Part shown: piece after piece, positions 2,030 to 22,619 of the stretch | Layout of the letters: every line of letters begins with the position of its first letter | Numbering within the stretch: position 1 is the first letter of the stretch | Source: a virus | IMG/VR virus record: IMGVR_UViG_3300044712_002070 | Span: 1-41,705 of that record | Direction: 5' to 3' (one strand) | Length of the DNA stretch: 41,705 nucleotides | Position numbers and translations under genes: made by a program | The notes under the pieces: model-generated | What the model saw: the letters and a program-made list of their open reading frames with translations, nothing else | Database searches by the model: none | Told to the model about the DNA's origin: nothing

Positions 2030-2064
2030 GTCCTTTACTAACTTTTCAAGCCTTATCAACTTTG
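2030..2064 (+). promoter_or_regulatory. Late promoter motif P1 (GTCCTTT-N20-CAacTTTG)
   Basis: GTCCTTT at 2030-2036, exactly 20 nt, then CAACTTTG at 2057-2064, resembling the Bacteroidota -7 element TAnnTTTG. The start codon of the capsid-maturation unit is 18 nt further on. Five other sites in the window share the motif and the exact spacing. Confidence 0.75.
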
Positions 2065-2082
2065 TGAAAAAGATTTACAAAG

Positions 2083-3183
2083 ATGATAAGGCCTTTTTAT
2101 TTCGAAGCTAAAAGCGAACAGGAAGCAGATTTGCATATTTACGGACCAATTGGCTCCAACAATGCCAATTATGGCGATGGTACCAACAATACTGCTTATG
2201 CGCTTGTATCGTTAATCAAGCGATTAGATAAGGTTTATTCAAGAATCAATATCCACATCAATAGCCCAGGAGGCGCAATTGATGAGGGTTTGGCAATTTA
2301 CAACACGATAAAACAGGCTAAGGCCGAAATCCATACTTTCAACTCGGGGTTAACAGCCAGTATGGCATCCATACTGATGCTTGCAGGTACCTCACACATG
2401 CCAAAGACTTCTATTTATCATTTGCACCGCGCCAGTACAATGGCATGGGGCAATGTTAATGATTTTGAGCAAACTATTGAAGCGCTTAAAACCTTTGAAT
2501 CAACATTAAAACAAGCCATTTCCGAAAAAACAGGGATGGAAATTAAGGATATAGAAAAAAAATGGTTCGACGGTAAAGAGCATTACATGACAGCCGAACA
2601 GGCTGCCGAATATGGTTTTGTTGACAATCTTGAAGAAACAAAGGCCAAAACCCCAGCAAGCCTCGAAAATTTACAAACAATGAAGTTTAACCAGGTAATG
2701 GAACTTTACAATGAAGTTTCGAACACCAACCAGGAACCAAAGTTCTGGGATAAAGTTAAATCGATGTTTATTGAACCAGCAAACAATTTAAAATCAGATA
2801 ATAATATGCCACAAAAATTAGCATTCAGGGCGAAGCTTACAATACTTCTTGCCCTTATTGGGCTTCAAGAGTTCATCTTGAATGCCGAAAATAAGGTTGA
2901 AATGGATTTGGACCATGCTTACAAAATCAACGATGAATTGGAAGCAAAAACCAATGAGATCAACAACCTTAAAGTTGAGAATGGCGTTTTACGCGAAGAG
3001 CAGGAACGCTTGCAAGCCAACATTTTAGAACTACAGGCAAAGCTCGATGGTAAACCATCCGATGGCGTTGTTACTACCAGAGCAGCAGATAACAGTACTG
3101 CTGATGATGCCAATGCCATAAAGGATCTTGACAAAGAAACCAGCGATAAGCTTAAGGCTTATAATAAGACAAAACGCTTTTAA
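2083..3183 (+). CDS. ClpP-like prohead protease with C-terminal scaffold-like coiled coil
   Basis: A 366-aa protein. Residues about 15-185 form a ClpP/S14-type fold: INIHINSPGGAIDEGLAIYNTI (54-76, split by the SPGG oxyanion loop), candidate nucleophile Ser93 in GLTASMAS, and candidate His113 in IYHLH. The acidic partner is less clear (around Glu166). Residues about 240-320 are a long charged coiled coil (LEAKTNEINNLKVEN onward), followed by a low-complexity tail. In many tailed phages this family cleaves the scaffold and capsid delta domain; here protease and scaffold appear fused in one chain. First gene of its unit, directly downstream of P1, and 23 nt ahead of the capsid gene. Confidence 0.88.
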   Translation: MIRPFYFEAKSEQEADLHIYGPIGSNNANYGDGTNNTAYALVSLIKRLDKVYSRINIHINSPGGAIDEGLAIYNTIKQAKAEIHTFNSGLTASMASILMLAGTSHMPKTSIYHLHRASTMAWGNVNDFEQTIEALKTFESTLKQAISEKTGMEIKDIEKKWFDGKEHYMTAEQAAEYGFVDNLEETKAKTPASLENLQTMKFNQVMELYNEVSNTNQEPKFWDKVKSMFIEPANNLKSDNNMPQKLAFRAKLTILLALIGLQEFILNAENKVEMDLDHAYKINDELEAKTNEINNLKVENGVLREEQERLQANILELQAKLDGKPSDGVVTTRAADNSTADDANAIKDLDKETSDKLKAYNKTKRF

Positions 3184-3206
3184 TTTAATCTCAAATAAAT
3201 AAAAAC

Positions 3207-4187
3207 ATGGCATTCGATTTAACAAGCCCTATTGATATTCAAGCGATTAATAACACAGCCAGAGAAATCCAGCCTAAGATTACCCGCCTGATGATGGAAA
3301 GTATTCGCGATTTACTTGCGAATTTCTACAAATATCCCGGTGATGTTCGTCAAAGTGTTGACCTTGTCACATTTAAACGCGGCTCAATTATGCAGCCTTA
3401 CGATCCGAACCTTACAACAGCAAAAACCCTTGGTATTCTTTCAAAGAGAACATTAAGCGTTAATGTTGGTATGTCGTTCATTAAAGATGAAGCTGAAAGG
3501 TACCGTGCTACCTATTTAGGTGCATTAGAAGATTTGAACATTTCTAATGAAGCTAAATTGCCATTTGCTAATTGGTTTTTAGAAACCATTGCTTTGGTTG
3601 GTTTAGCTGATATGGCCGATCTTCCTTACCGTGGTAAAAAAGACACCGGAACCGATGCAATAGACATTACCGATGGTTACCTGGAAATTATTAAGGATGC
3701 AATTACTGCAAACGAAATAACTACTGCACTTGGTAACTTGTTTACTTTATCAGGTTCAGCAACTGATTACACTGCAAGCACAATTGGAAAAGAATTGCAG
3801 GATCAATTTGCAAAATTACCGGCAATGACTCAAAAATATGGAGTAAACATCCATATCGATTACAGTTATTTGCAGATGTACAAGGAATGGTTTAAATCTG
3901 AATATTCAAACATTACCGATGGTGATGTTCCAACTGAGTATTTGGATGGTACCAATAAGAAAGCAAAATTCATCTGGACTACAGGACTTGCAGGAAGCAA
4001 ACGTGTAATTATGACCACTGCCGATAACCTTGTTTATGGTGTTGATCGCGACAATAAAGAATTCGGTAAAGTTCTTGTTTTCCATCATGGCACTCCTTAC
4101 ATTGTTGGTGCAACCAATAAAGTTGTAATTGGCTTCCAGATTCGCACACTCGATAAATCTGAATTTGTAGTTAATAACCTGGAGTAA
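3207..4187 (+). CDS. Major capsid protein
   Basis: A 326-aa protein with no signal peptide, lying directly after the prohead protease, the usual position of an HK97-fold capsid gene. The N-terminal 60 residues are helical; the centre and C-terminus alternate strands and helices (GSKRVIMTTADNLVYGVD around 265-285; VLVFHHGTPYIVGATNKVVIGF around 290-315) in the manner of phage capsid subunits. There is no long delta domain, consistent with a separate scaffold carried on the protease. Assignment rests on context and overall character; I see no diagnostic motif. No promoter motif lies between it and the protease, so the two are co-transcribed. Confidence 0.8.
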   Translation: MAFDLTSPIDIQAINNTAREIQPKITRLMMESIRDLLANFYKYPGDVRQSVDLVTFKRGSIMQPYDPNLTTAKTLGILSKRTLSVNVGMSFIKDEAERYRATYLGALEDLNISNEAKLPFANWFLETIALVGLADMADLPYRGKKDTGTDAIDITDGYLEIIKDAITANEITTALGNLFTLSGSATDYTASTIGKELQDQFAKLPAMTQKYGVNIHIDYSYLQMYKEWFKSEYSNITDGDVPTEYLDGTNKKAKFIWTTGLAGSKRVIMTTADNLVYGVDRDNKEFGKVLVFHHGTPYIVGATNKVVIGFQIRTLDKSEFVVNNLE

Positions 4188-4238
4188 TCCAGGTTTTTAA
4201 CCTTTTGATATAAATTTTAATTCTATAAAAAAATTACA

Positions 4239-5150
4239 ATGATAGAATATGATGATATTTTAAATCCAGTGCTCGAAAAGGGCAACATGGGAGGTATCTG
4301 GGAAGATGTATTCTTTGCCCCAAAAAGTCACTTTGCATCATTTGCTAAGGTTCCATCAGAAGATGGAGATCGCAATTTTGCAACATTGAACAAACTGGTA
4401 GACGGTGTAGATGCTTTGCTTCCAGGTAAAAAGCTTTTCAAACTTTACGGTACAATGGAAAAAGGCAGTTTAGTTGCTGCACGCCAGGGCGAAATTGATG
4501 GTGTAAGCCATAAAATTTCTCTTAAAATTTTCACTCCAGGATTAGAAAGTCAATCTTTGGCAATGCTTGCATTACCAAACCAGAACTGGATTTTCTACGT
4601 TCGCACAGGAAAGAAAATGTTCCGTATGGGAGGTGATATGTTTGCCGCTAAATTAGCAGCTGATGGCGAGGTTGGAACTGGTGACAGTACTGCAAGTGCA
4701 AAAGGCAATTCAATGACTTTCTTTACTTACGAAAATGGCTATTGCCCGGAAGTTGTGGACATTGATGCTATTCTTGCAAAAGTAAATGTTGCTGATGCTG
4801 GTTTAACCGTTGCATTTGTGCCAGCACATGGCGCAGTTGGCGTTTTAGTTGATGCTACACCAACCATCACTTTTGGTGAAGCTATTCTTGATGCCAATAC
4901 AATGGCCGCTTTCACAAGCCAATCGTTCCAGGATATCTGTACTTTAAACAGTTTGGATGTTGATGGAAATGTGGTTGCTGCTAAACCGTTTACAGCGGTT
5001 AAAAACAACCAGGTTGTAACCATCACGCCAACTACCGACTTTGCAGCAAACACAATTTACGAATTGAAATTTGATGCAACCAGGGTAATTAGTGCCGATG
5101 CACAGGGTGCCATAAGCGGACGCAACTCGGTAAGGTTTACAACAGCTTAG
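4239..5150 (+). CDS. Tail-tube-like structural protein with C-terminal Ig-like domain
   Basis: A 303-aa protein. The N-terminal 180 residues (VFFAPKSHFASFAKVP near the start, then LFKLYGTMEKGS and GKKMFRMGGDMFAAKL) resemble Bacteroidota phage tail-tube proteins that open with a YFAP/FFAP segment, from memory. Residues about 190-303 form an Ig-like beta-sandwich of the Big_5 type (VPAHGAVGVLVDATPTITF ... YELKFDATRVISADAQGAISG), a common decoration on tube or capsid subunits that projects from the virion surface. It closes the capsid unit and is followed by a strong terminator. A head decoration protein is the main alternative. Confidence 0.65.
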   Translation: MIEYDDILNPVLEKGNMGGIWEDVFFAPKSHFASFAKVPSEDGDRNFATLNKLVDGVDALLPGKKLFKLYGTMEKGSLVAARQGEIDGVSHKISLKIFTPGLESQSLAMLALPNQNWIFYVRTGKKMFRMGGDMFAAKLAADGEVGTGDSTASAKGNSMTFFTYENGYCPEVVDIDAILAKVNVADAGLTVAFVPAHGAVGVLVDATPTITFGEAILDANTMAAFTSQSFQDICTLNSLDVDGNVVAAKPFTAVKNNQVVTITPTTDFAANTIYELKFDATRVISADAQGAISGRNSVRFTTA

Positions 5151-5193
5151 AAACCATTCTTTTTTAAATAGATTCTTGTACTCATTTTTTGCT

Positions 5194-5218
5194 AAGCCCC
5201 ACGTGTGGGGCTTTTTTC
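5194..5218 (+). terminator. Intrinsic terminator after the capsid unit
   Basis: Perfect 9-bp stem AAGCCCCAC / GTGGGGCTT around a 2-nt loop, followed by a T-run. It ends the capsid transcription unit 44 nt after its last stop. Confidence 0.9.
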
Positions 5219-5223
5219 GTTTC

Positions 5224-5249
5224 GGTGACTTCGGCTACGCTCAGTCACC
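5224..5249. repeat. REP-like palindrome, copy 1
   Basis: A 26-bp unit with GGTGACT / AGTCACC arms around a TCGGCTACGCTC core. It is followed 25 nt later by an almost perfect inverted copy, so the pair can also fold into one long cruciform. Confidence 0.85.
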
Positions 5250-5274
5250 GAAGAAAGTCACCGGAGCGCGCATT

Positions 5275-5300
5275 GGTGACTGAGCGGAGCCGAAGTCACC
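5275..5300. repeat. REP-like palindrome, copy 2 (inverted relative to copy 1)
   Basis: Reverse complement of the 5224-5249 unit with one mismatch. It ends two bases before promoter motif P2. Confidence 0.85.
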
Positions 5301-5302
5301 AT

Positions 5303-5337
5303 GTCCTTTCCTTGATTTTTGGAAGTGGATATTTTTA
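5303..5337 (+). promoter_or_regulatory. Late promoter motif P2 (GTCCTTT-N20-TAttTTTA)
   Basis: GTCCTTT at 5303-5309 and TATTTTTA at 5330-5337 with the same 20-nt spacer as the other five sites. This is the only copy ending in A instead of G. The start codon of the packaging unit is 21 nt downstream. Confidence 0.7.
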
Positions 5338-5358
5338 CACGTAAATAATTCAAAGATT

Positions 5359-6150
5359 ATGAATGATATAAATGACAAAATAAAAACTTACCTGGCACAA
5401 GATGAACCAGAATTCTTCGAAGGATTGGAACTGTATCAAAACCATCCGGATGCACGGAAAAACCTGATTGTTAATTTCAGGCAAAACTCAAACCATGGCA
5501 GGATACACAATAAGTTAATCAACGAGCTTGAAAGAATTGTGAACGCTGTATATACAAACCGCAATGCAAAGTACATACACAGTCAGGCCAATGTTCCTTA
5601 CAAATTGGTAGAAAAAACAAAAGAACTGGCACCCGAAAACTTTGAATATAAAATTGCTTTTAACGATCTTCCGAAAGAACTTCAGGAAAAGGCAATCTTT
5701 AAAGGCCAGCTTTACAGCGAACTTGAAAAAGAAAAGCGCGAAATGGCCAATCTTGGTGATGCCAACGACGAAGAAACAATTGCCAAACGTCAGAAGCATT
5801 TAATGAAAATGCGCGATATGCAGGAAGGAATATTATCCATTCATGCCATTTTGCTGCATTACGATAAAACTCAGAACTACGATCCTTCAGTTGCAATCGA
5901 GAAAGAAGAAATTCCTGTTGTGAATGATTCTGATGAATTAGAGAATGAATTCCATTATAAAGAAATGGGCTATTACAAGCGCAAAGATTTATTAATAAAG
6001 CTTCGCTCATCGGTACCAAAGCAGGAACAAAGGGCCAATTCTTCAAAACCGGAAATTAAAAAGAAGAATCTTGAGAAAGCAGCTTTAGGCCGCGAAATGA
6101 TTGCAGTTCTTGAAAAGTATTTTAATGAAACACCAGAGCCAGAGAAATAA
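5359..6150 (+). CDS. Hypothetical protein opening the packaging unit
   Basis: A 263-aa, highly charged, mostly helical protein without signal peptide or membrane helix. Residues about 110-160 (ELEKEKREMANLGDANDEET) and 205-263 look like coiled coil or extended helix; the C-terminal 60 residues are Lys/Glu-rich. I do not recognise a domain. It is the first gene of the terminase operon, directly after promoter motif P2, and its stop overlaps the ATG of the next gene by one base. A role in packaging or in handling packaged DNA is suggested by context only. Confidence 0.7.
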   Translation: MNDINDKIKTYLAQDEPEFFEGLELYQNHPDARKNLIVNFRQNSNHGRIHNKLINELERIVNAVYTNRNAKYIHSQANVPYKLVEKTKELAPENFEYKIAFNDLPKELQEKAIFKGQLYSELEKEKREMANLGDANDEETIAKRQKHLMKMRDMQEGILSIHAILLHYDKTQNYDPSVAIEKEEIPVVNDSDELENEFHYKEMGYYKRKDLLIKLRSSVPKQEQRANSSKPEIKKKNLEKAALGREMIAVLEKYFNETPEPEK

Positions 6151-6725
6151 TGCTCATAGATTTTAATAAAGAAGTTGCTTCATCTGTAAATAATTCTGTT
6201 TTAAGTGAAAATCATCCTGCTGCTTTCATCAGTTCGCAGGATGATTATTTATCTAAACAATTGAGAGGAATTGATTTTACGGATAAAGATAAGACCTGGC
6301 ATTTTACCAGCAATGGCCGTTTTGCTTTGCATGATATATTGATTCATATTGCTGCCAGGATTGAAGGAATGGAATGTATTGTTACCAGCTTCAACCTTTC
6401 GGTTATTGCCGCAAAATTGTTTATTCGTGCCTGGGATACCGGCTTATTTAAAAGCCTTTCTTTTATCCTAAATGCACAGAAACGCCACAATTTTGAAGAT
6501 GCAGTAAAGCTGATAGATGGTAAATTTCCAATGATATTTACTTCCATCCATGCCAAAGTTGGGCTATTGTGGAACGAAAACCATTTTATAACCCTGGTTA
6601 CTTCAGGCAATTTAAGCAATAACAACAATATAGAGCGGGGCTTTATTTCAACATCTAAGGATGTTTTTTATTTTGATAAAATGTGGATAGATGGACTACT
6701 CAATAGAAATGCTAAACAAGATTGA
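6150..6725 (+). CDS. Phospholipase-D-like (HKD) domain protein
   Basis: A 191-aa protein. The segment around 130-165 reads SIHAKVGLLW ... LVTSGNLSNNNNIERG, matching the PLD-superfamily HxK motif (His-Ala-Lys) followed by the G-S/N-x-N-L/S element (TSGNLS). The region before it (70-125) shows the alternating helix/strand pattern of the PLD fold (IEGMECIVTSFNLSVIAAKLF). Only one HKD motif is visible, so an active enzyme would work as a dimer. PLD-fold proteins include nucleases and phosphodiesterases; a nuclease role in packaging or in attacking competing DNA is possible but unproven. It overlaps the next gene by 35 nt. Confidence 0.6.
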   Translation: MLIDFNKEVASSVNNSVLSENHPAAFISSQDDYLSKQLRGIDFTDKDKTWHFTSNGRFALHDILIHIAARIEGMECIVTSFNLSVIAAKLFIRAWDTGLFKSLSFILNAQKRHNFEDAVKLIDGKFPMIFTSIHAKVGLLWNENHFITLVTSGNLSNNNNIERGFISTSKDVFYFDKMWIDGLLNRNAKQD

Positions 6726-6975
6726 AGAATTTGCAAATCTTCTGGCATTGCCACAAGATATTGCAATGATTCTGGAAGTTGAACCGCGCGAATTTATTGA
6801 TGAATTGAAAGATATAAACAGCGCAGTTTATAAAGCATTTTACAAGGGTTACTTTACTTACGAACTAGATTTGCGCAAACGCAATAAAACCGCCATAGAT
6901 ATTGAAGCAATTGAAAATGAAAATCAAAACCTAAGAGATTTTAAATCTAAGTTAATCATACAACTTGAAGACTAA
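6691..6975 (+). CDS. Small HTH-like protein next to the terminase
   Basis: A 94-aa protein with a helix-turn-helix-like segment at about 12-45 (FANLLALPQDIAMILEVEPREF), followed by a basic helical region. This arrangement resembles the N-terminal DNA-binding part of terminase small subunits (LxxPxEIAxxLxI). It sits between a PLD-like gene and a second terminase-type small protein, overlapping both. It may be a DNA-recognition subunit of the packaging machine. I cannot assign a named family. Confidence 0.6.
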   Translation: MDYSIEMLNKIEEFANLLALPQDIAMILEVEPREFIDELKDINSAVYKAFYKGYFTYELDLRKRNKTAIDIEAIENENQNLRDFKSKLIIQLED

Positions 6976-7543
6976 GAAGGCTGAAGATATTACACTTGAT
7001 AGAATTCGTGCCTGGTTAAACGAACCTGGTGCGCCAGAACTTTCCGAAACCGACCGTAAGATATACGATAGATTGGATTATTGTTACGATCAACTTAAAA
7101 TCGAAAAGCCATCATCTGTCATCAGGCGTTTGATTAAGAAATTTGAAATTAGTCAGGCTCAAGCCTATAAAGATTTAACCAATTGCCAGAAACTACTCAA
7201 TCCCATTAACCGCCGCGAACTTGAATGGATTCGTAATTTTATTGTCGATGATGCCATTCTGCAAATGAAAGTAGCAAAAGACAGGGTTGATATGAAAGCA
7301 TGGGAAAAAGCCCGTGGTGATCTCATTCGCATATATGCAATTGAGAAAGAAGATAAGCAAGGAATAGATCCTGAACTTTTGGGACACAATCAATATTTTG
7401 TAGCCATCAATTTTGGCGAAAAAGCTGAAATGATTGATTTGAATAAACTACATCAACTCCCTGTTGAAAAAAGAGTTAAGCTTTCGGAGTTCCTTTATCC
7501 TGATATAGAAATTGAAGATGCTAAATTTATTATGGAATCATGA
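6965..7543 (+). CDS. Terminase small subunit
   Basis: A 192-aa protein immediately before the large terminase, overlapping it by 4 nt. Residues about 45-75 (SVIRRLIKKFEISQAQAYKDL) are a helix-turn-helix typical of small terminases, which recognise packaging sites on phage DNA. The first in-frame initiator is TTG at 6965, overlapping the previous gene by 11 nt; the next ATG is far inside the conserved part, so TTG is preferred. The C-terminal half (GHNQYFVAINFGEKAEMIDLNKLHQLP) likely contacts the large subunit. Confidence 0.75.
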   Translation: MKTKKAEDITLDRIRAWLNEPGAPELSETDRKIYDRLDYCYDQLKIEKPSSVIRRLIKKFEISQAQAYKDLTNCQKLLNPINRRELEWIRNFIVDDAILQMKVAKDRVDMKAWEKARGDLIRIYAIEKEDKQGIDPELLGHNQYFVAINFGEKAEMIDLNKLHQLPVEKRVKLSEFLYPDIEIEDAKFIMES

Positions 7544-9195
7544 ACCAGTTTCTATCCTTTAATGAATTGCAAACAGCCATTGCCATCCTGATGCCAAAGT
7601 ACAACTTTATGGTTTCGGGCCGTGGTTTTGGTAAATCAACATATTTTGGTTATCAAATGCATCAGATTGCTCAAGTGCTCCCGGGTGCAAGTGCAATTAT
7701 TGCCGCCAAAACTTACACCCATGTATTGACCTCTGTGCTCCCATCGGCGTTCGCACACCTCGAACGAATGGGATATATCAGGGATGTTCATTATGTTATT
7801 GGAAAGCAACCGCCAAAGGCATGGGGCGAATTGCCATATCACACGCCAATTAAAGATTTTAGTAATTACATTACTTTCTTTAATCCCAAACGTTTATCAG
7901 GTTTCTACCTTACCAGCCAGGAAAGAATTGGATCGGGACGTGGTCCAAATACCGATTTCCTGATGACAGATGAAACCCTGAATTTGAATAAGGAACGAAT
8001 TGATAATGAACTTTCGCCAACGCTTAGGGCGAATAAAGATAAATTCAGGCATATACCCTGGCATTTGGGCGAATACCATTCCACATCTATGCCTATTACC
8101 CAAAATGCACGGTGGATTTTGGAAAAAGGCGAATACTATATCCAGGAATATGGTATTGATTACTTTGGTTTGTGGCGCCAGGTTGTCAAAATGCAAATTG
8201 AATTGCTTGACATTACCGATGAAAAAGAATTTGTAAGGCAGTGGAACGAAATTCAACGTGTGCGCCGCTTGATGCGCCCGCTTTTGTCAAAGGATGGGAA
8301 AACACTGTTTACCTTATCGAATGCTTTCGACAATTATAAAAATGTTGGGCTTTCATATATAAAAGAACAGCAAAAGCGATTGCCAGAAATGATTTTCTTA
8401 ATCGAAATCATGAACATGGTTTTATCGATGAACGACAATTGTTTCTATGCCATTAATGAAGACAAGCACTTTTATTATGATAGCTATGATGATGATTTAA
8501 CAAATGAATTTGCCATTTCAACAAATTTTGATTTTGCAAAACTGAGCCAACGAAAAAGCAATATTCTCAATAGAAAATATTACAATCCGAATAAACCATT
8601 GTTCCTTTTCTTTGACTGGGGAGGAACTGTAAGCTTTTGCCTTGCTGCACAATTCGACCGCGAAAGAAATACGCTTTTCGTCCTTAAAGAGCATTATGTA
8701 ATGCCAGGAGGCGAAATGAGTACCAGGTTGATGCAGGAATTCTTGGAATTCTTTGAGGATCATACTTTCAAGACTGTTTATTATATCCGCGACCAATACG
8801 GAGATGCCCGAAGTATCCAGAAATCAAAATCTATAAACGAAGAGGCCATAAGTTACCTTCAGAAAAGAAAATGGAAAGTAATTCCACGCACACACCCACA
8901 TAAAGAGCCGCCGATGTTCGAGAAATGGCAATTGATGCAAAAAATTATGCTCGAAGCTGGCGAAAACCTTTTTAAGATAAGAATTGATGGAAATGGATGC
9001 AAATATCTGTCAATAGCCATGAGAGACACCAAAGTTAAGCAGGTTGGAGATGAACTTTCTAAAAATAAAAGCCTGGAGCGCAAAGAAAGTGCAGACCAGC
9101 GCAAAGCCCCTCACTCTACCGATGCACTTGATAAAGGTTGCTATTGGTTATTTAAGGAAAATAAGAATGATATGTTTATCCCTACCAAAATCTAA
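7540..9195 (+). CDS. terL: Terminase large subunit
   Basis: A 551-aa DNA-packaging motor. Walker A is at residues 26-34 (SGRGFGKST) and the Walker B/catalytic Glu region at about 138-146 (TDFLMTDET). The C-terminal RNase H-like nuclease shows Asp359 in LFFDWGG, Asp418 in YIRDQYGDA and Asp528 in STDALDKG. Length and motif order fit the family. The protein cuts concatemeric DNA and pumps it into the prohead through the portal. Its TAA stop abuts promoter motif P3 with no gap, so this unit ends exactly where the next begins. The gene is separated from the portal gene by about 3.7 kb, an unusual order. Confidence 0.93.
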   Translation: MNQFLSFNELQTAIAILMPKYNFMVSGRGFGKSTYFGYQMHQIAQVLPGASAIIAAKTYTHVLTSVLPSAFAHLERMGYIRDVHYVIGKQPPKAWGELPYHTPIKDFSNYITFFNPKRLSGFYLTSQERIGSGRGPNTDFLMTDETLNLNKERIDNELSPTLRANKDKFRHIPWHLGEYHSTSMPITQNARWILEKGEYYIQEYGIDYFGLWRQVVKMQIELLDITDEKEFVRQWNEIQRVRRLMRPLLSKDGKTLFTLSNAFDNYKNVGLSYIKEQQKRLPEMIFLIEIMNMVLSMNDNCFYAINEDKHFYYDSYDDDLTNEFAISTNFDFAKLSQRKSNILNRKYYNPNKPLFLFFDWGGTVSFCLAAQFDRERNTLFVLKEHYVMPGGEMSTRLMQEFLEFFEDHTFKTVYYIRDQYGDARSIQKSKSINEEAISYLQKRKWKVIPRTHPHKEPPMFEKWQLMQKIMLEAGENLFKIRIDGNGCKYLSIAMRDTKVKQVGDELSKNKSLERKESADQRKAPHSTDALDKGCYWLFKENKNDMFIPTKI

Positions 9196-9230
9196 GTCCT
9201 TTACTAAAATGGTAGGTTTTAAGAAATTTG
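9196..9230 (+). promoter_or_regulatory. Late promoter motif P3 (GTCCTTT-N20-GAaaTTTG)
   Basis: GTCCTTT at 9196-9202 starts on the base after the terminase stop codon; GAAATTTG at 9223-9230 follows after 20 nt. The ATG of the next gene lies 29 nt further on. Confidence 0.75.
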
Positions 9231-9259
9231 ATTAAAATTTAAACTTTATATTGATCAAT

Positions 9260-10615
9260 ATGAAAATTACAGGAAAAAACGCAGCTGTGGGCCAAACAGC
9301 TGAAGATATTATTAATGCCGGTGGAACATTGACTGAACCAACACAGGCACGCATACACGCATTGGTTTCTACAGATACCCAGGATGATGCTGGTGGAGTT
9401 TTACAGGTTGAAACAGCAACAGTTGTTGGTACCATTGTGGGTATCAACCAGGTTGAGACACAAACTATAGTTGGCACAATTGCTGCCGATGGCGCTGGCA
9501 ATGCCAAAGTAACCATATCAGGCGCATTGCTTGATGATGATATTGAAGTTCTGGTTGCGGTTGCAAACAACGATACTGCTTCGCAGGTTGCAACAAAAGT
9601 ACGTGCAGCTTTAAACCTGGTTTCGGCTATAACAACTAATTACACCATTGGTGGAACCGGTGCCGACGTAACTTTGACCACAAAAGTAAAGGCTGCCAAT
9701 GATACATCATTAAACATTGCCTTCGATAACGATACCTGTGCAGGATTAACCGGTGATACATCATCAGTAAACACCACTGCTGGACATGCTGGTACTGGTA
9801 ATGCCACTGTAGTTGTAACCGGGGCAGCTATCCAGGATTCGCCAATTACTTTATCAGTGCCTGTTGTAGCTGGTGACACTCCAACCCTGGTTGCTGGAAA
9901 AATAAGAAGTATAATTTTATTGGAAGATAAAATTACATCCTTATATAATGTAGGTGGAACTGGTGCAACTGTAACTTTAACAAAAAAAGTGCAGGCTGCA
10001 AATGATACTACATTGAATATTTCTATTGATAATGGCACTTGCAATGGTTTAACAACTGCTTCGTCAAGTGCTGATACAACTGCCGGTTTGGCTGGTACTG
10101 GTGCGCATCAAATTGAAATTATCGGAATTAACGAAAATGGCAAAGAAATTACCGAAATCGTTAATTTGAACGGAACCGCCAATGTAAACACCAAAAATTT
10201 GTTTAAAGCCATCAATTCAATGAGGGTTAAAACTGCCGGATCGGGTGGAAAAAATGTAGGAACAATAACCGCAACCGCCGCAACCGATAGCACAGTAACC
10301 AGTCAGATTGAAGCAGGCAAAAACAAAGCGCAATATGCTGTTTATTATACTGAAAGGAAGAAAAAAATAAAAGCTTTACACGCTGCTGTATACAATAGTA
10401 CAGCCGGAGCACAAACTACAATTGAATTACTTACAAAAAAAGCTGGTGAAGTCTGGAAGCCTGAAGCATCTTTTGATTTGAATAGTTCATTTCCATATCT
10501 TTTTGATAAGGAAGGTTCTTTATTTGAAGAATTGGAAGAAAACACAATGTTTAAATTCCAGGCCGTTGCCAGTGCTGGCAGTTCGGCAGTAATCATAAAC
10601 TTTGAAGTGAACTAG
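9260..10615 (+). CDS. Virion structural protein with two ~100-aa repeats
   Basis: A 451-aa Ala/Thr/Gly-rich protein. ATG 9260 is preferred over an in-frame TTG at 9251. Two tandem repeats of about 100 residues (79-178 and 179-279) share the pattern GNAxVxxxGA ... DTxxxVAxKxR ... GGTGAxVTLTxKVxAANDTxLNI, a module I recall from phage tail and head-fibre proteins. The C-terminal 160 residues form a different beta-rich domain (INENGKEITEIVNLNG; KALHAAVYNSTAGAQTTIEL). The protein probably decorates the virion as a head fibre or tail component. It forms a one-gene unit with its own promoter motif P3 and terminator, implying high-level independent expression. Confidence 0.7.
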   Translation: MKITGKNAAVGQTAEDIINAGGTLTEPTQARIHALVSTDTQDDAGGVLQVETATVVGTIVGINQVETQTIVGTIAADGAGNAKVTISGALLDDDIEVLVAVANNDTASQVATKVRAALNLVSAITTNYTIGGTGADVTLTTKVKAANDTSLNIAFDNDTCAGLTGDTSSVNTTAGHAGTGNATVVVTGAAIQDSPITLSVPVVAGDTPTLVAGKIRSIILLEDKITSLYNVGGTGATVTLTKKVQAANDTTLNISIDNGTCNGLTTASSSADTTAGLAGTGAHQIEIIGINENGKEITEIVNLNGTANVNTKNLFKAINSMRVKTAGSGGKNVGTITATAATDSTVTSQIEAGKNKAQYAVYYTERKKKIKALHAAVYNSTAGAQTTIELLTKKAGEVWKPEASFDLNSSFPYLFDKEGSLFEELEENTMFKFQAVASAGSSAVIINFEVN

Positions 10616-10648
10616 GTTTTGGTTAATTTTTTTTCATTTTTTGGTTGG

Positions 10649-10674: not shown

Positions 10675-10706
10675 GGAATAATTGATAAATGATTTTTTTA
10701 TATGGT

Positions 10707-11140: not shown

Positions 11141-11146
11141 ATTATT

Positions 11147-12536: not shown

Positions 12537-12571
12537 GTCCTTTATGCTTTTTGATTGAATTGTCATCTTTG
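12537..12571 (+). promoter_or_regulatory. Late promoter motif P4 (GTCCTTT-N20-CAtcTTTG)
   Basis: GTCCTTT at 12537-12543 and CATCTTTG at 12564-12571. Only four bases separate the -7 element from ATG 12576, so the transcript would be leaderless or nearly so. Confidence 0.75.
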
Positions 12572-12575
12572 ACTT

Positions 12576-12869
12576 ATGATTAGAAGGCGAACTAATGAAC
12601 TAAATGCTGTGCTTGCTGACTGGGACGAAACGAAATTTCCATCAGGGAAAATTAAAACTTTTTCTGTGGGGTTTGTGAGTAAAAGTGGTGAGTTTAGGTA
12701 TGTGAAAAGAGGGATTAAAGCTGGATTGAAAATGAACATGAAGGATAATGATATGAAGGCTGTGCAACCTGTTGATGAGAATGGTAATGCTTATGGGCAT
12801 ATTTATCCTGTTTGGATTCATTCTATTTTAATCTATAGTGGAAATATTGAATTTAATTTACTCACATGA
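12576..12869 (+). CDS. Hypothetical phage protein preceding the portal
   Basis: A 97-aa basic protein (IRRRTNELNAVLADWDETKFPSGK at the start, then VGFVSKSGEFRYVKRGIKAGLKMNM). I recall similar small proteins in Bacteroidota phages near portal genes but know no function. It overlaps the portal gene by 4 nt, so the two are translationally coupled. The ATG lies so close to the P4 -7 element that a leaderless mRNA is predicted; the next in-frame ATG is about 50 codons further in, within the conserved-looking part, so a downstream start is unlikely. Confidence 0.7.
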   Translation: MIRRRTNELNAVLADWDETKFPSGKIKTFSVGFVSKSGEFRYVKRGIKAGLKMNMKDNDMKAVQPVDENGNAYGHIYPVWIHSILIYSGNIEFNLLT

Positions 12870-14173
12870 GAGAATTTGACAATAAAGGAAACTTAATATT
12901 ATCAATATCAGACAATAATGTTGTGATGTTGACTAAGGATCCGCAAGGCAGTATGCCAATTACTAAAAGTAATGCAGAGGTTGATCCGGTTACGGTTGGA
13001 TCCTTCAAGGCAATACCCTGGTATGATGATAATAATTTTCCGCAAGCTGCTGATTTGCTTATAAAAAACACTCCAGTTCTTAAACGCTCGCTTACTGATT
13101 TGTGTAAGATTACTCTAGGTCAGGGTGTATTTCCTTGCCTGGTTAATGATACGCTCCCAAATGGGCAGGAGGTTTTGAAAATGATTAAAGATCCGCTGAT
13201 TACTGCACAGATGCAATCCTATAAAATGCGCAGGTATATTGCCAATACCTTGTATGACTTGTACACTTACGGAAATGCATGGGTTCAGTTGGTGCCGAAT
13301 GTGGAAGGAACTAAGATTTTGACTTTGAATCCTGTATCTGCTTTGAAGTGCAGAAACGAAATGTTTGATAACAATGGTAATGTTAAGAATGTATTAGTCA
13401 GTGGTTATTGGCCTGATGCTGAACAAAAGAATACTAAAAAATATTTGCTCCTGGATGAGATTGATCCTATTGCTCATCTTGAGGAGCTTAAAACTAATGG
13501 TGGACTGAAAAATACAACTGTATTTATGCAGTTAAAGAATAGTTGGTCATCTAATGATAACTATGCCATGCCGAACTGGTATACTGCACTTGAGTGGGTT
13601 AATATCAGTAAGAAAGTTCCGAAGTTTATTAACGCGGGAATGGATAATATGCTTAATATTTTCTTCCTGGTTAAAATACCATATTCGTATTGGGAAAAGA
13701 AATATCCAAGGGATCAGTTTGAGAGTGATAGAGAAAGGCTGGCTAAGATTGAAGCTGATGTGACAATGCTTGAGACTAAGTTTACAACCGTGGAAAATGC
13801 ACGGAAAGCATTGATAACTCACTTTGATTCTGAAAATGGTGGAGAGAAATGGGAAATTGAAATCATACAACCAAAATTTTCTGAAGAGCAATTGAAACAT
13901 TCATCGGCAGCTGATACACAGATTGCCATTGCTGCTGGTATGTCACCTGATTTACTTGGTTTGATGTACGGAAATTCAAAAGGTGGATCTATGCAAAGGG
14001 AATTATTGTTGCTGCAATATGCTTTGAGCTGGCAAGAACGTGAACAGGCTGCCGAACCTATTGAAATGATGTTGAAATTTAATGGAGCTGATCCTAATTT
14101 ACAAATCAGGTATAGAAATACTTTCCTTACTACCCTTGACACCGGGGCAGGAACCGCAACCACTTTAAGCTAA
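12866..14173 (+). CDS. Portal protein
   Basis: A 435-aa protein of portal type. Its N-terminal part (PVLKRSLTDLCKITLGQGVF; ANTLYDLYTYGNAWVQLVPN; ILTLNPVSALKCRNEMFDNNG) follows the usual portal order of wing helices and a beta domain. The C-terminal part (AADTQIAIAAGMSPDLLGL ... GGSMQRELLLLQYAL) is the typical crown/stem region with a GxxP/xLG segment. Portals form the dodecameric DNA channel at the capsid vertex that binds terminase and the head-tail connector. It begins the large connector-tail unit under P4, far from terminase. Confidence 0.85.
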   Translation: MREFDNKGNLILSISDNNVVMLTKDPQGSMPITKSNAEVDPVTVGSFKAIPWYDDNNFPQAADLLIKNTPVLKRSLTDLCKITLGQGVFPCLVNDTLPNGQEVLKMIKDPLITAQMQSYKMRRYIANTLYDLYTYGNAWVQLVPNVEGTKILTLNPVSALKCRNEMFDNNGNVKNVLVSGYWPDAEQKNTKKYLLLDEIDPIAHLEELKTNGGLKNTTVFMQLKNSWSSNDNYAMPNWYTALEWVNISKKVPKFINAGMDNMLNIFFLVKIPYSYWEKKYPRDQFESDRERLAKIEADVTMLETKFTTVENARKALITHFDSENGGEKWEIEIIQPKFSEEQLKHSSAADTQIAIAAGMSPDLLGLMYGNSKGGSMQRELLLLQYALSWQEREQAAEPIEMMLKFNGADPNLQIRYRNTFLTTLDTGAGTATTLS

Positions 14174-14178
14174 TTATT

Positions 14179-15198: not shown

Positions 15199-15210
15199 AC
15201 AACACTAAAC

Positions 15211-17390: not shown

Positions 17391-17482
17391 AAAACCCTGA
17401 GCGATTCTTTAAAATAGTTATCATCATTAGCTCAATTGCATCATTGATACTTGCAGCAACGTTAATCTATTACATAGCATGA
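17387..17482 (+). CDS. 31-aa membrane peptide
   Basis: ATG 17387 overlaps the previous TGA; TGA at 17480-17482 overlaps the next ATG (17479). After a short basic head (MKNPERFF), residues 9-31 form one hydrophobic helix (KIVIIISSIASLILAATLIYY). Being nested exactly between two coupled genes supports translation. Function unknown; a spanin- or holin-like role cannot be shown. Confidence 0.45.
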   Translation: MKNPERFFKIVIIISSIASLILAATLIYYIA

Positions 17483-17955
17483 GCACATACACCGATTACA
17501 CAGCCTATTTTCAGAAGTTGGCCGAAACTTATCTTAATCATTCCACGAATGAAAAGCATTTCTTCCGGAAAGGCTTGGAAGAATTCCTTAACGGCTTATC
17601 TACAAATGTAAACTACCCTGCAATGCTGCTTGGTAAGTACGATTACAAGTATACCGACAATGGAGCTGACAATATAATGAAGCCCCGCACGGTTGCTTTT
17701 ATCATTTGTGACCATGTGGCAGATATGGAAGATTATGATTCTATTGATAAGGCAATGGATAGCACAGAATTGATAGTTGACAAGATTTACAACCAGATAC
17801 GTAAAGATATCAGACCGCCATATACTGATCCAAATTTTGAATTTGCGAAACTTGGTGAAGTTCAGGTTACACCTGTAAGCAACTATGCCGATGGCGCGCA
17901 TGGTTGGTTTGTTACAATTGAGATTTATTCACATCATGATGCTAGAGTAGTATGA
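17479..17955 (+). CDS. Head-closure/tail-completion-like protein
   Basis: A 158-aa protein with a helical N-terminus (TYFQKLAETYLNHST-like) and an alpha/beta core ending in a strand (WFVTIEIYSHHDARV). The size, the TDNGADNIMKPRTVAFIICDH centre and the position before two large tail proteins fit tail terminator or neck proteins of siphoviruses. This is assignment by context; no catalytic motif. It overlaps the next gene by 4 nt. Confidence 0.55.
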   Translation: MSTYTDYTAYFQKLAETYLNHSTNEKHFFRKGLEEFLNGLSTNVNYPAMLLGKYDYKYTDNGADNIMKPRTVAFIICDHVADMEDYDSIDKAMDSTELIVDKIYNQIRKDIRPPYTDPNFEFAKLGEVQVTPVSNYADGAHGWFVTIEIYSHHDARVV

Positions 17956-19436
17956 ATGTAACTTATTCTAAAACACCAAAAACCATTGACTTTACCGGAA
18001 ATGGTCTACCATTTGAAATTGCAGCGGATAATATTATTTATCCTGGAGTTTATGCACGTGCTACTTTAGAATTGTTTGAGGCTTTTACAGGAAATTTCAA
18101 ATTAATTGACATCAATACGGGTGAATATTTTACCGTTTATTCTGTCGCAAGCCCCAACCAAACAAATGAAATACAATCGGGTTTGGCTACCACAACATTA
18201 ATTGCCGAAGCTCTTAACGCAATAAAACAATTTAATGAAAGTTATTTTGCCTATGGTGTAGATGCTTATTTACATATTCATGCCAAACAGCATTATACTG
18301 CTTTTGCAAATGAGATTGCATATGAATTTCCTGATTGTTTCTATTTAGTTGTAAATGATGTAGGGAATACCCCGGTTTATTATGGCAATTATTCTCTTTA
18401 CGTTCGAATATCGGAAGTAATTTCAAGATTGGTGCAAAATAACCCGCCGCTTGGAGTTCCTTCGGAAGATGATTTGTGTGAATTAACACTAGTTCCGGAT
18501 GTAAACAAAGTCTCTGAATTCAGCATAGCTGAGATAGTTAAACCTTCTATTCCTATTGTATTGCCATCATTAAATCAAAATACCGATAGCTCTTTTGTAT
18601 TTCAATATAATATACGTGTTGGCGACATGCATTTTAATGAAGCGCAAACCGAATTTAATACATTCAAATCAGTTCTGCATACAGGTTATGCCATGCGTGG
18701 CAAAATTAACCTGGTTGATAATCCAAATTACGATCTGGTTGCTGATATTGCCGCCAATAAAATTTTCCTGAACAGTTTTAAGAAAATTGAAATATTTAAA
18801 GGGGCTAATTGTTTGCTTAACTTTCTTAGCACTGGTGCCGAAACTTATACTGTAAAAGCAAAAATATATTATACCGACCAGACAAATACTACTGAAAATA
18901 TATTTTCGATTGGAACACCGGCAGGTTTTTATAAAATTAATTCCTTTCATGCTTCAATAACTAAAATGAATCTTGAAAGCTATAATCCAACAAAAGAAAT
19001 TTATAAATATGAAGTTTGGGTTACTGATAGTCAGGCAGCAATTGTGTGCAATCCTGTAACTTTTAAAGTAATTGCAAAACCAATCTATTCAAAAGAATTC
19101 GCGTATGTGAATAAATTTGGAGTAATTGAAATTTACCAGGCTATTAGCAAAGAAGATATTTCGCTTGAGCTGGATAAGGTAATTACTCAATTGTCTGATT
19201 CTTCGATTTCGGATGCATTTATTAATGCTCATAATAAATTTAAAGTCTCTACAGGCAGTTTAAACCGGGCAAATGCACTTGAAATGCAACAGATGATAAT
19301 GTCAGAAGGCTTGTACGAAATCATTAATTCGACCTATGTAAAATGTATTATCGAGGCGGGATCGTTCAATATCGTTGACGAAAGCGCCGATATTTGCTCA
19401 ATTGATTTCACTTATCGGTTAAATTTCGACTTATGA
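17952..19436 (+). CDS. Large tail/baseplate protein 1
   Basis: A 494-aa beta-rich soluble protein. The N-terminal 200 residues contain LELFEAFTGNFKLIDINTGEYF and a YAYGVDAYLHIHAKQHY-like central segment; the middle resembles stacked beta domains (KAKIYYTDQTNTTENIFSIG). There is no signal peptide. It lies upstream of a second large tail protein with a 4-nt overlap, and both lie ahead of the tape-measure gene. The most likely role is a distal tail or baseplate component. I do not recognise the exact family. Confidence 0.6.
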   Translation: MNVTYSKTPKTIDFTGNGLPFEIAADNIIYPGVYARATLELFEAFTGNFKLIDINTGEYFTVYSVASPNQTNEIQSGLATTTLIAEALNAIKQFNESYFAYGVDAYLHIHAKQHYTAFANEIAYEFPDCFYLVVNDVGNTPVYYGNYSLYVRISEVISRLVQNNPPLGVPSEDDLCELTLVPDVNKVSEFSIAEIVKPSIPIVLPSLNQNTDSSFVFQYNIRVGDMHFNEAQTEFNTFKSVLHTGYAMRGKINLVDNPNYDLVADIAANKIFLNSFKKIEIFKGANCLLNFLSTGAETYTVKAKIYYTDQTNTTENIFSIGTPAGFYKINSFHASITKMNLESYNPTKEIYKYEVWVTDSQAAIVCNPVTFKVIAKPIYSKEFAYVNKFGVIEIYQAISKEDISLELDKVITQLSDSSISDAFINAHNKFKVSTGSLNRANALEMQQMIMSEGLYEIINSTYVKCIIEAGSFNIVDESADICSIDFTYRLNFDL

Positions 19437-21526
19437 ACCTGATTTCGCTTACTGTAAACGATCGCGATGTAGTATTAGGAACCGATTTCAATGTTCGGTT
19501 TACTTTCAGTTTTCCTTTGCCTTATAATAATAATGTGCCGGTTGCGTCAACTTATTGGTTTACACTTCCGGTTGAAGGGAATGAAATTACTTTTGCGCAT
19601 GTAAACCAGCTTAATTCTGCCAAAAATTTGAAGGCTTACAATATAAAAGCTATTGTTTCGGGGCTTTGTTTTGTAGGTAAAATATACGTGAAAAATGCCA
19701 GCAACCGCGAATACAAAGCATTTGCAGTTTTTAACGATTTATTTGAAACCCTTTCGAGTAAAAAAATAAGTGAATGTGTTGATGATGTTCATACCCTGGG
19801 CACCGATACCGCTTCCGTATTGGCCGCAGCAAAAACAATGAGCCAGCAAGCCTGGCCATTGGCCAAATATGCTTTTCCTTTTATTCTTAACGAATTGTTT
19901 TATGGCGATATAAACGAGCAATATGTCAACAATGGACAGTTTATGAATAATTACGACAGAAACGGGCAGGCATTTCGTAATAACTATTTGTTTGAAGGAA
20001 CGGTTTATAATAATAATGTGATGGTTCCTATGCCATACCTGTTTTTTATCATTGATCATATGATGAAAAAAGTAGGATGGACCGTGATAGGGAATGTTTT
20101 TAAGGATGAAAATTTTAAAAAGCTTGTTTTTTACAATAATTATTCGCTTGAGAATATTGCTGATCCTAATGCCATGCAAATTAAGATTGATGCTATGGTT
20201 CAGATGGGGCAAGGCAATACAAATATTAAAATTAATTTTAACCAGGAAGTTTTTGATAATGCCGACAATTTTATTGCTGCAAGCTCTGAATTTACTTGTA
20301 AAGAAGCTGGTACTTATAATTATTCTTTTTATTCATTTATAAGTTTTTGGAACGAATTGGGTAATACCGCAACTATTGTTATATATATATATGATGGAAG
20401 CACGTTTACAGAACTTCAATCGGTAGACTGGACAGATCCTGATTATTTAACTAAAGATTGCCAGATAAACGGTACTGTTGAACTGCTAGAAAACACAACC
20501 TATTCAATATATTATTCTTATAATTTTAGTTGGGGCGGTTGGATGGAAAAAACTTCATTCCAGGTATCACAGTTTAGCGATGGCATCAATAGGTTTTCGA
20601 ATAAAGTAAGACTAACCAATCATGTTCCAAATCTTACCACATCAGAATTTTTTACAGAATTGATGAAGAAATTTTCGTTTGCTATTTTCTTCGATTTCAT
20701 CAATAAAAAGATTGAACTCGAGCACTGGAATAATATTATAGACAGCAACAATTATCTTGATTTATCAACCAAAGTAGTTAAAGATAGCGAAGATTCGACT
20801 ATAGAAGAAAGAGATTATTCCTTTACAACAGAATGGGACAATGATGAGTTGATAGAAGAAAGCATTAAGAACAAATCCAAATACAGTGCTTATTCGAAAG
20901 TTGCTAATTATGCCAGTTTACCAACGCCCACAAGCATTGGTCAGGTAGTTCTTGTGGTTAATTTAAATAAATTCTACATCACTTATTTAAATGTAGAAAC
21001 CAATAGCCTGGAATGGAAATACAATTCGGACAATTTCGAAGATGTTGTAAGCGAAATGAAAGATCCTGTAACCATATCAACAAAAATAAATACCCTGTTT
21101 GAGCGCCAGGGAACCGTAGTTTATCCCGAAATTAAACAGCAGGGCACCACTCCCGAGCTGGGCAATAATGATCCTGGTTTTAAATTGCTGAACTATCATG
21201 GATTTGTTACTAACTATCCATTTGCCAGCAATACCAACTACAACCAGGCGGGCGCGAAAATTACAGGTGTGGCACTTCAGACACAAGGCAACGAAGGAAC
21301 CTACGAAACATACGGAAAGAAACTATATGACTACCTGCGCGCGTGCAAGCCCCTGGAAATTAATTTCGCTATTGATAACGATGATTTTATACAAATTTCT
21401 AAACTATTTGTAGCTGGCAATCAAATAAGGAAAGTGAGACTAAGTAACAAAAACTACATTCCAGAGAGCTTTGATATTACTATATCATCAAATAAAATTG
21501 AAAGTTGTAAAGCGAAATTGTTATGA
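19433..21526 (+). CDS. Large tail/baseplate protein 2
   Basis: A 697-aa protein. An N-terminal beta domain (about 1-110) is followed by an Asn/Tyr-rich region (MNNYDRNGQAFRNNYLFEG) and, from about 255 to 390, a beta-sandwich-like segment (TCKEAGTYNYSFYSFISFW) that may bind carbohydrate. The C-terminal part (about 560-697) has the mixed alpha/beta character of baseplate hub proteins. This family of very large tail proteins is typical in Bacteroidota siphophages. Role in the baseplate or tail tip is inferred from size and place; there is no enzymatic signature. Confidence 0.6.
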   Translation: MNLISLTVNDRDVVLGTDFNVRFTFSFPLPYNNNVPVASTYWFTLPVEGNEITFAHVNQLNSAKNLKAYNIKAIVSGLCFVGKIYVKNASNREYKAFAVFNDLFETLSSKKISECVDDVHTLGTDTASVLAAAKTMSQQAWPLAKYAFPFILNELFYGDINEQYVNNGQFMNNYDRNGQAFRNNYLFEGTVYNNNVMVPMPYLFFIIDHMMKKVGWTVIGNVFKDENFKKLVFYNNYSLENIADPNAMQIKIDAMVQMGQGNTNIKINFNQEVFDNADNFIAASSEFTCKEAGTYNYSFYSFISFWNELGNTATIVIYIYDGSTFTELQSVDWTDPDYLTKDCQINGTVELLENTTYSIYYSYNFSWGGWMEKTSFQVSQFSDGINRFSNKVRLTNHVPNLTTSEFFTELMKKFSFAIFFDFINKKIELEHWNNIIDSNNYLDLSTKVVKDSEDSTIEERDYSFTTEWDNDELIEESIKNKSKYSAYSKVANYASLPTPTSIGQVVLVVNLNKFYITYLNVETNSLEWKYNSDNFEDVVSEMKDPVTISTKINTLFERQGTVVYPEIKQQGTTPELGNNDPGFKLLNYHGFVTNYPFASNTNYNQAGAKITGVALQTQGNEGTYETYGKKLYDYLRACKPLEINFAIDNDDFIQISKLFVAGNQIRKVRLSNKNYIPESFDITISSNKIESCKAKLL

Positions 21527-21903
21527 GCGAAAATTTTAACCAGGATGTGCTGCAATGGTCACAGGAATCTGTGGCCATGATGAAACAACGGGTTTCGCAA
21601 CTTACCAATAAAAGCAAGCACGAATATTTAAAAGCAAAAGGCGCAAGCCTTGAACAAAGCATAAAAACCAGAAATACCAAACGGTTTGGCGATATAGAGC
21701 GCATTATGTTTCCATTTTTGCGACATGGTTTTTTTATTGCCATCGGTGCCAGCCGCAAGCATCCATATAAAAGCAACCCACGCCAAAAAATAGAGTGGTA
21801 CAATTTTATTTTTGATAAACGGATAGATACCCTTGCAGATATTGTCGCCGAACATTATGCCGATAAGGCTATGGCTAAGGCTAGTGATTTGGGCGTTAAA
21901 TAG
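21523..21903 (+). CDS. Small tail-completion-like protein
   Basis: A 126-aa basic helical protein overlapping the previous gene by 4 nt. The centre reads KRFGDIERIMFPFLRHGFFIAIGASRKHPYKSNPRQKIEWYNF, a pattern I recall from small neck or tail proteins of Bacteroidota phages. The C-terminus is Ala/Lys-rich and helical. It ends the large connector-tail unit, and its TAG is followed within two bases by a REP-like palindrome pair. Confidence 0.6.
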   Translation: MSENFNQDVLQWSQESVAMMKQRVSQLTNKSKHEYLKAKGASLEQSIKTRNTKRFGDIERIMFPFLRHGFFIAIGASRKHPYKSNPRQKIEWYNFIFDKRIDTLADIVAEHYADKAMAKASDLGVK

Positions 21904-21904
21904 T

Positions 21905-21930
21905 GGTGACTTCGGCTTCGCTCAGTCACC
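21905..21930. repeat. REP-like palindrome, copy 3
   Basis: GGTGACT / AGTCACC arms around TCGGCTTCGCTC; first half of an inverted pair right after the connector-tail unit. Confidence 0.85.
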
Positions 21931-21942
21931 GAAGCGCGCATG

Positions 21943-21967
21943 GGTGACTGAGCGTAGTCGAAGTCAC
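21943..21967. repeat. REP-like palindrome, copy 4 (inverted)
   Basis: Inverted partner of 21905-21930 with a 12-nt spacer (21931-21942). Its last arm base is changed. It ends 6 nt before promoter motif P5. The pair may act as a terminator between units, since no T-tailed hairpin is present there. Confidence 0.8.
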
Positions 21968-21973
21968 ATGAAT

Positions 21974-22008
21974 GTCCTTTTTGTTTGTTCTGGAAACTTC
22001 CAAATTTG
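21974..22008 (+). promoter_or_regulatory. Late promoter motif P5 (GTCCTTT-N20-CAaaTTTG)
   Basis: GTCCTTT at 21974-21980 and CAAATTTG at 22001-22008; the start codon is 42 nt further on. Confidence 0.75.
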
Positions 22009-22050
22009 TAATCTAAATTCATTTATAAATTTTAATTAAATCATTTTAAG

Positions 22051-22497
22051 ATGAAATTATTGTTAAACATTTTTTGTTTCCTCATCTTTTTGCTTACGGC
22101 ATTTAATGCCGGGGCATCGCCGCAAAAAGATGATGTAAAACAGGGTGTCTTCGGCTTACTTCGGCTTCGCTCAGTAACCGATATTCAGACACCGAAACAG
22201 TACAAGGTTGTAGACCAAATTCAAATTCAGGCATTCGATTTTAGTAATGAAAATCAATTAAATTGCAATTTTGTGGTAGATATTGGCTCACGAGCGGAAA
22301 GCTTGCCAATATTAACCGATTGGGGCAATTCTATAAAAACTGATAATGAATTTACGATACATAATAATTTAAGAAATTTTATTCCACATGCGAAAACTTT
22401 GATATATAAGTTGCAAGATGGAAATAATGACTTACTGACCCGATTAAACAAAGGACTATCTTGCGGCGCAATGGGAGATATGTATAGCCTAACATAG
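22051..22497 (+). CDS. Secreted/periplasmic protein of unknown function
   Basis: A 148-aa protein with a clear signal peptide: KLLLNIFCFLIFLLTAFNAGA, with cleavage likely near residue 23. It has two later cysteines (LNCNF and LSCGAM) that could form a disulphide. No enzyme motif is visible. Residues about 32-48 (GVFGLLRLRSVTDIQTPK) are encoded by a REP-like element inserted in frame. It forms a one-gene unit with its own late promoter motif P5 and a terminator, and precedes the tape-measure gene. Envelope-directed lysis or host-modification roles are possible but unproven. Confidence 0.65.
   Translation: MKLLLNIFCFLIFLLTAFNAGASPQKDDVKQGVFGLLRLRSVTDIQTPKQYKVVDQIQIQAFDFSNENQLNCNFVVDIGSRAESLPILTDWGNSIKTDNEFTIHNNLRNFIPHAKTLIYKLQDGNNDLLTRLNKGLSCGAMGDMYSLT
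22144..22193. repeat. Variant REP-like element inside the secreted-protein gene
   Basis: GGTGTCTTCGG at the left and CAGACACC at the right enclose a further CTTCGGCTTCGCTCAG core. Both arms changed together (GTC with GAC instead of GAC with GTC), keeping the stem. It lies in coding sequence and keeps the frame open. Confidence 0.65.
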
Positions 22498-22522
22498 CGA
22501 CTACTAAAAGCATAAATTTTCA

Positions 22523-22552
22523 AAAGCCTGGATTATTTTCGGGCTTTTTTTT
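22523..22552 (+). terminator. Intrinsic terminator after the secreted-protein gene
   Basis: Stem AAGCCTG / CGGGCTT (one G-T pair) followed by a run of eight T. Confidence 0.8.
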
Positions 22553-22577
22553 GTGACTTCGGCTTCGCTCAGTCACC
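22553..22577. repeat. REP-like palindrome between terminator and P6
   Basis: GTGACT / AGTCACC arms with the TCGGCTTCGCTC core. It lies directly after the terminator T-run and 7 nt before promoter motif P6. Confidence 0.8.
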
Positions 22578-22584
22578 GAATTAC

Positions 22585-22619
22585 GTCCTTTCGTACACCC
22601 CATAATAACCAGAAATTTG
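22585..22619 (+). promoter_or_regulatory. Late promoter motif P6 (GTCCTTT-N20-GAaaTTTG)
   Basis: GTCCTTT at 22585-22591 and GAAATTTG at 22612-22619; the tape-measure ATG lies 20 nt further on. Confidence 0.75.

Follow-up and report, generated by a model that had tools for sequence, protein, structure and literature searches.

The DNA analysed here, called the window throughout (the whole stretch of 41,705 nt), is a temperate siphovirus genome (41.7 kb, 35% GC, no tRNAs) in which a two-part motif recurs upstream of the protease, portal and tape-measure genes, among others. This raises the question of whether the repeated sites are promoters of the late genes and, if so, which factor reads them.

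Organization of the window genome

The genes of the window include those collected in Table 1, among them the head protease, portal and tape-measure genes, and code further for a Bro-N protein and a DnaA-C-type HTH protein. An early operon (29.3-38 kb) is followed by the genes of two protein families, referred to as A and B, and then by a late block spanning the record ends to 25.6 kb, a gene order which suggests that the record is circularly permuted. Two candidate host-type promoters (TTG-N18/19-TAnnTTTG) precede early genes, that at 29239 being divergent from the repressor-like gene; thus, early and late units would differ in their type of promoter.

Several other features of the genome were recorded. 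Between family B and the late block lies a 709-aa ORF (39359-41488) with weak similarity to a tail protein (phrog_31460) and with no counterpart in the genomes compared. The 551-aa protein at 7540-9195, conserved in all complete relatives, had no PHROG match, nor did a relative have a Pfam match. To judge from its place in the genome, it may be the large terminase; no other gene for that enzyme turned up. Moreover, a hairpin repeat (GGTGACTTCGGCT..CGCTCAGTCACC and its reverse), possibly terminator-like or REP-like, is dispersed in the genome (5224-5300, 21906-21967, 22553-22576 and near 32064, 37868 and 38252), three of its copies sitting immediately 5′ of putative late promoters. The two inverted repeats of Table 1 are possible transcript boundaries.

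Table 1. Coordinates of the features of the window; promoters and the role of family A are predicted
Feature	Position	Strand	Description
Putative late promoter 1	2030..2064	+	GTCCTTT-N20-CAACTTTG; 5′ of head-maturation protease (ORF 2083-3183; PHROG matches)
Putative late promoter 2	5303..5337	+	GTCCTTT-N20-TATTTTTA; 5′ of ORF 5359-6150 (conserved 263-aa gene), then the 551-aa gene
Putative late promoter 3	9196..9230	+	GTCCTTT-N20-GAAATTTG; 5′ of ORF 9260-10615 (454 aa, without assigned identity)
Putative late promoter 4	12537..12571	+	GTCCTTT-N20-CATCTTTG; 5′ of ORF 12576-12869 (97 aa) and portal (12866-14173)
Putative late promoter 5	21974..22008	+	GTCCTTT-N20-CAAATTTG; 5′ of ORF 22051-22497 (148 aa)
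Putative late promoter 6	22585..22619	+	GTCCTTT-N20-GAAATTTG; 5′ of tape-measure gene (22640-25630)
Inverted repeat, 26 nt (GGTGACTTCGGCTACGCTCAGTCACC)	5224..5300		Directly 5′ of promoter 2
Inverted repeat, 31 nt	21906..21967		Directly 5′ of promoter 5
Integrase	25643-26806	minus	
Candidate host-type promoter	27034..27062	+	TTG-N18-TATATTTG; consensus match only; 5′ of small early ORFs
Repressor-like gene	28842-29180	minus	
Candidate host-type early promoter	29239..29268	+	TTG-N19-TATATTTG; consensus match only; 5′ of ORF 29301
Primase	31637-35029		
Family A, candidate late activator	38369..38866	+	165 aa, pI 9.1, helix-turn-helix-like C-terminus
Family B	38844..39359	+	Overlaps family A at the latter's 3′ end; paralogous to late ORF 4239-5150

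A two-part motif in the window

The word GTCCTTT was found on the plus strand at the six starting positions of Table 1 and once on the minus strand (22450). These 7 copies compare with 5.66 expected, so that the word is not enriched and is meaningless by itself. The combination GTCCTTT-N20-NANNTTTG had five matches in the window vs. 0.01 in shuffled sequences (0 of 100 shuffles reached five) and no match on the minus strand. The -7 element NAnnTTTG was present at five of the six sites, the remaining one (5303) ending in TTTA, and no extra sites were found in the window when one mismatch was allowed. At all six sites an ATG followed the -7 element within 4-42 nt, so that the positions, 8-mers and start codons reported in the preliminary description were all reproduced. 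Of the names it had given to the units, 'packaging' (5303) and 'secreted protein' (21974) are confirmed by no profile.

The motif in related phages and prophages

Single-protein scans with the window portal, protease, primase and ORF 17952 returned no relatives. Relatives were obtained by alignment-based searches alone, giving a total of 222 portal-related loci from IMG/VR and GTDB genomes (3.3 Mb). The nearest portals were those of L090 (69% identity) and L170 (64%), followed by most of the others at 32-38%, which belonged to Bacteroidales phages and prophages, and the portals of Leef (Helgolandviridae), Ingeline and laban (Duneviridae) were ~24% identical to that of the window. Two portal relatives appeared on short contigs labelled as non-Bacteroidota (L105, with a Candidatus Falkowbacteria title, and L113, with a Sulfuricurvum MAG title); mis-binned Bacteroidota phage contigs are a more likely explanation for them than a host jump.

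In the 222 loci, GTCCTTT appeared exactly 20 nt 5′ of the -7 element (matched as A..TTTG) at 124 distinct sites on the late strand, compared to 0-1 sites at each other spacing and 0 on the opposite strand (50 vs. 0 in the first 80 loci). The preliminary description had made its proposal depend on enrichment of the motif upstream of late genes in relatives, and this one-strand excess at the exact spacing bears it out. The consensus constructed from 220 sites consists of a T-rich tract, TGTCCT(T/A)T, N20, TAnnTTTG and an A-rich stretch. The upstream element first described as GTCCTTT is better given as a T-rich tract with TGTCCT(T/A)T, and the loss of the first T of TAnnTTTG is more marked in the window genome than in the family, 65% of the sites in relatives having it. 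Furthermore, out of 181 GTCCTTT or GTCCTAT sites, 9 (5%) were inside ORFs, and the next start codon followed at a median of 18.5 nt (within 30 nt for 133 sites).

Some sites also keep their places. L090 and L170 each have one that matches the portal-unit promoter 4 of the window, and the nearest relatives have, in addition, a site matching its protease promoter 1. The divergent phage G006 presents sites before the protease, before the 263/274-aa gene (site 35022 and gene 35086, homologue of ORF 5359-6150) and before the tape-measure gene (site 13526 and gene 13579). Leef and Ingeline, whose genomes are complete, carry TGTCCTTT at 6:0 and 7:1 in favour of the late strand (0.4-0.5 expected); the 20-nt register is kept, and the -7 element reads TAATATTG, TAAAATTG, TATACTTG or CATCTTGC. 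Other phages vary the letters: TGTCACA in laban and its relatives, in the same register, TGTAACA in L088, CGTCCTA in L048 and TGTCC(C/T) in L224. Two lineages have variants in the same register, with TGTCACA upstream or TAnn(A/C)TTG at -7, and a register kept while the letters drift by clade would be expected of a co-evolving binding protein. Apart from the motif, further plus-strand dyads were seen in the portal loci (GGAT/TGGA at 17/18), which may be conserved coding sequence.

Probable promoters of the late genes

Taken together, the sites are very probably late-gene promoters, whose lateness and start points we deduce from the position of the genes. The Bayley et al. type consensus for the promoter of the Bacteroidota primary sigma reportedly combines -33 TTTG with -7 TAnnTTTG. 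As the -7 element of the motif is identical to the host consensus, host sigma probably opens the promoter. The motif sites lack a host -33 TTTG/TTG at about 19 nt.

The frequency of the motif in host genomes bears on whether these could be ordinary host promoters, with TGTCCTTT as a version of the host -33 read without phage help. Same-strand clusters aside, the motif matched its reversed control in frequency, both in 13 whole genomes and in a later set of 149 from Bacteroidales, and outside prophages it remained at background; in G037, 6 of 8 sites were in one 22-kb prophage stretch. A host-promoter reading would account for CTTT overlapping the expected -33 position and for a -7 element equal to the host consensus, with T often first in relatives, but it is improbable given the control-level rate outside prophages, the spacing rigid at 20, a TGTCC that is under much tighter constraint than the host TTG, and variants at the same place which differ by phage clade. 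Even less probable is a signal other than a promoter, such as one for packaging, replication or a translation leader repeated before late genes: start codons do follow the sites at some tens of bases, but their -7 element matches the host promoter consensus, they have a single fixed spacing, they are numerous and all on the same strand, and several are preceded by a terminator-like T-tract or hairpin.

Family A as candidate activator

The whole-genome comparison returned family A (156-199 aa across the lineage) as the one non-virion, non-replication and non-integrase family common to the lineage. Its gene lies shortly 5′ of the late block, and the first late site is found ~500 nt after its stop codon in several phages and at 2-4 kb in most others having one, while in Ingeline the first well-formed late site lies ~90 nt after it. 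Upstream of family A, there is one weak degenerate match to the motif only. The family was detected in 26 of 32 phage records. Among 13 prophage-bearing genomes it was present in 12, in one of these at E 0.04 only; absences from the whole-genome search are soft, as it missed family A in G001, yet L303, taken from the same contig, has it. The member in the window is divergent (~13-20% identity to most others) and was placed in the family by its profile and its fold.

The protein is basic, with a pI of 8.6-9.8 in 12 members. It had no match in NCBIfam, nothing meaningful in Pfam or among PDB sequences, and only matches of unknown function in PHROGs; sigma profiles in Pfam, NCBIfam and PHROGs gave no match, nor did known regulators by sequence or fold. 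Weak matches for residues 97-147 (gyrase/topoisomerase IV and a TrpR-like protein) were at chance level in PDB searches and were discarded. For a central member, the AlphaFold prediction (pLDDT 83) has a C-terminal helical bundle, in which helices 115-126 and 135-145 are arranged around the invariant R144, and the model of the window member shows the same order of elements. This predicted fold suggests a helix-turn-helix, with no database match behind it. When compared with a library of viral structures, the window and L290 models each had one significant match, to the same Leef protein (157 aa), which was in neither alignment and lies directly before the first late promoter of Leef.

The linkage between family A and the motif was examined in the 149 genomes, with the family A profile and the strict motif searched separately. 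A total of 19 out of 95 strict sites were on seven family-A contigs, all 19 downstream of family A and on its strand, when well under one would be expected by chance (from background density and ~18 such regions). Five of the six multi-site clusters were accompanied by family A. Among 14 other genomes chosen without clusters, family A appeared in G101 alone, where the sole site on the contig is ~200 nt after the family A gene. As one of the core genes of the lineage, family A may owe this linkage to shared descent. In G058 and G101, family A and motif sites occur with no recognisable portal relative (contigs C11 and C46, respectively; loci L344 and L345), so the link is not carried solely by the portal lineage, which suggests use of the switch by phages with different virion modules as well. 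On the other side, ~11 of the 18 family-A contigs have no strict site; some of these are contig fragments, and some may carry variants. Moreover, G012 and G025 have five and three sites and no detectable family A, G025 being a 34-kb piece.

Other candidate factors

That the sites are late promoters read by another factor, either a phage protein (for example an early LuxR/GerE-type one or a small early protein) or a phage sigma or co-sigma factor, seems rather unlikely, although with more to recommend it than the readings as host promoters or as signals of another kind. An early LuxR/GerE-type protein was present in 8 of 16 related phages (e.g. L233 716-1270, which is G006 20716-21270, Leef1_22 and Ingeline1_18), and this GerE-domain protein has weak similarity to sigma region 4; the sites of G012 without detectable family A also fit this alternative. 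LuxR proteins were put forward as switches in these families by the founding paper of Helgolandviridae and Duneviridae (PMC8776804), in which the word 'promoter' is absent. However, the window lacks the GerE protein, as do several motif-rich genomes (G003 and G005), and being missing from half of the genomes compared it was discarded as a general factor. No sigma factor match was found for the window proteins scanned, and, leaving aside primase, integrase and family B with its virion-like character, family A was the sole non-virion family found across the set.

Family B, next to family A, is probably a virion protein rather than a regulator, and it was discarded as the activator for being acidic in the window and in most relatives, a paralogue of a late gene, and preceded by a late promoter of its own in Ingeline. 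One of the two paralogues in the window, that of the late block, has an Ig-like (Big_5) domain; most relatives have two copies.

Proposed mechanism

According to the proposal favoured here, the sites would be the late promoters of a large temperate siphovirus lineage of Bacteroidota. Host RNA polymerase with the host primary sigma would read the TAnnTTTG-like -7 element, and TGTCCTTT would sit at the host -33 position, where host sigma should read it poorly. The small basic family A protein, produced from the early operon, would bind TGTCC(T/A)T, fix the polymerase at a set distance from the -7 element and, by recruiting it to a weak -7, switch on all late units together. We infer promoter activity, DNA binding by family A and its contact with the polymerase, and consider it fairly probable that family A is the late activator working with host sigma. 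The wider proposal, a phylum-wide late-transcription system of temperate Bacteroidota phages in which a new activator family A, with no sequence relationship to known activators, co-evolves with a TGTCC-type element held at a fixed register and captures the divergent host primary sigma, is put forward with a little less assurance, as slightly favoured. The preliminary description had read the sites as late promoters which combine a -7 resembling that of the host with a new -33 and require a phage activator or an altered sigma; this reading is supported, and a candidate activator can now be named.

Bacteroidota phages rank among the most abundant viruses in both gut and sea. The motif is usable to find late operons and prophages in raw sequence, supplies a named candidate activator, and could yield an expression switch under phage control for laboratory strains of Bacteroides and Flavobacterium. 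If true, the mechanism would reveal in what way a phage factor cooperates with the unusual sigma of Bacteroidota.

Comparison with known systems

A literature search covering few subscription-journal papers and no preprints returned no description of late-gene control in Bacteroidota phages and no earlier description of a late-promoter family of this form, in agreement with the preliminary description. Leef, Ingeline and laban (Helgolandviridae/Duneviridae) have in common with the window the portal, tape-measure protein, primase, family A and the TGTCC-type element; the window differs in its portal, at only ~24% identity. Middle promoters of T4 combine a MotA box with the host -10 and depend on MotA/AsiA. 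The likeness to them is in architecture only, with the host -7/-10 kept and an upstream box at rigid spacing (124 sites), while the host phylum and the sites are different; no MotA match was found for family A in sequence searches or for the scanned proteins, and fold searches had no significant PDB match. In phage Mu, the middle and late promoters use the activators Mor and C next to a weak -35. A phage activator produced before the late genes would be the likeness, and the site is different; the three family-A proteins scanned had no match to the Mor family or to another Pfam activator. Finally, the promoters of the Bacteroidota primary sigma share with the phage sites the same -7 element and an upstream part at about the same distance, but the phage sites use TGTCCT(T/A)T at a fixed 20 nt, a set found only in phages. 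An activator-dependent phage promoter is of a known kind, while the motif, its broad distribution within the phylum and the candidate protein appear to be new.
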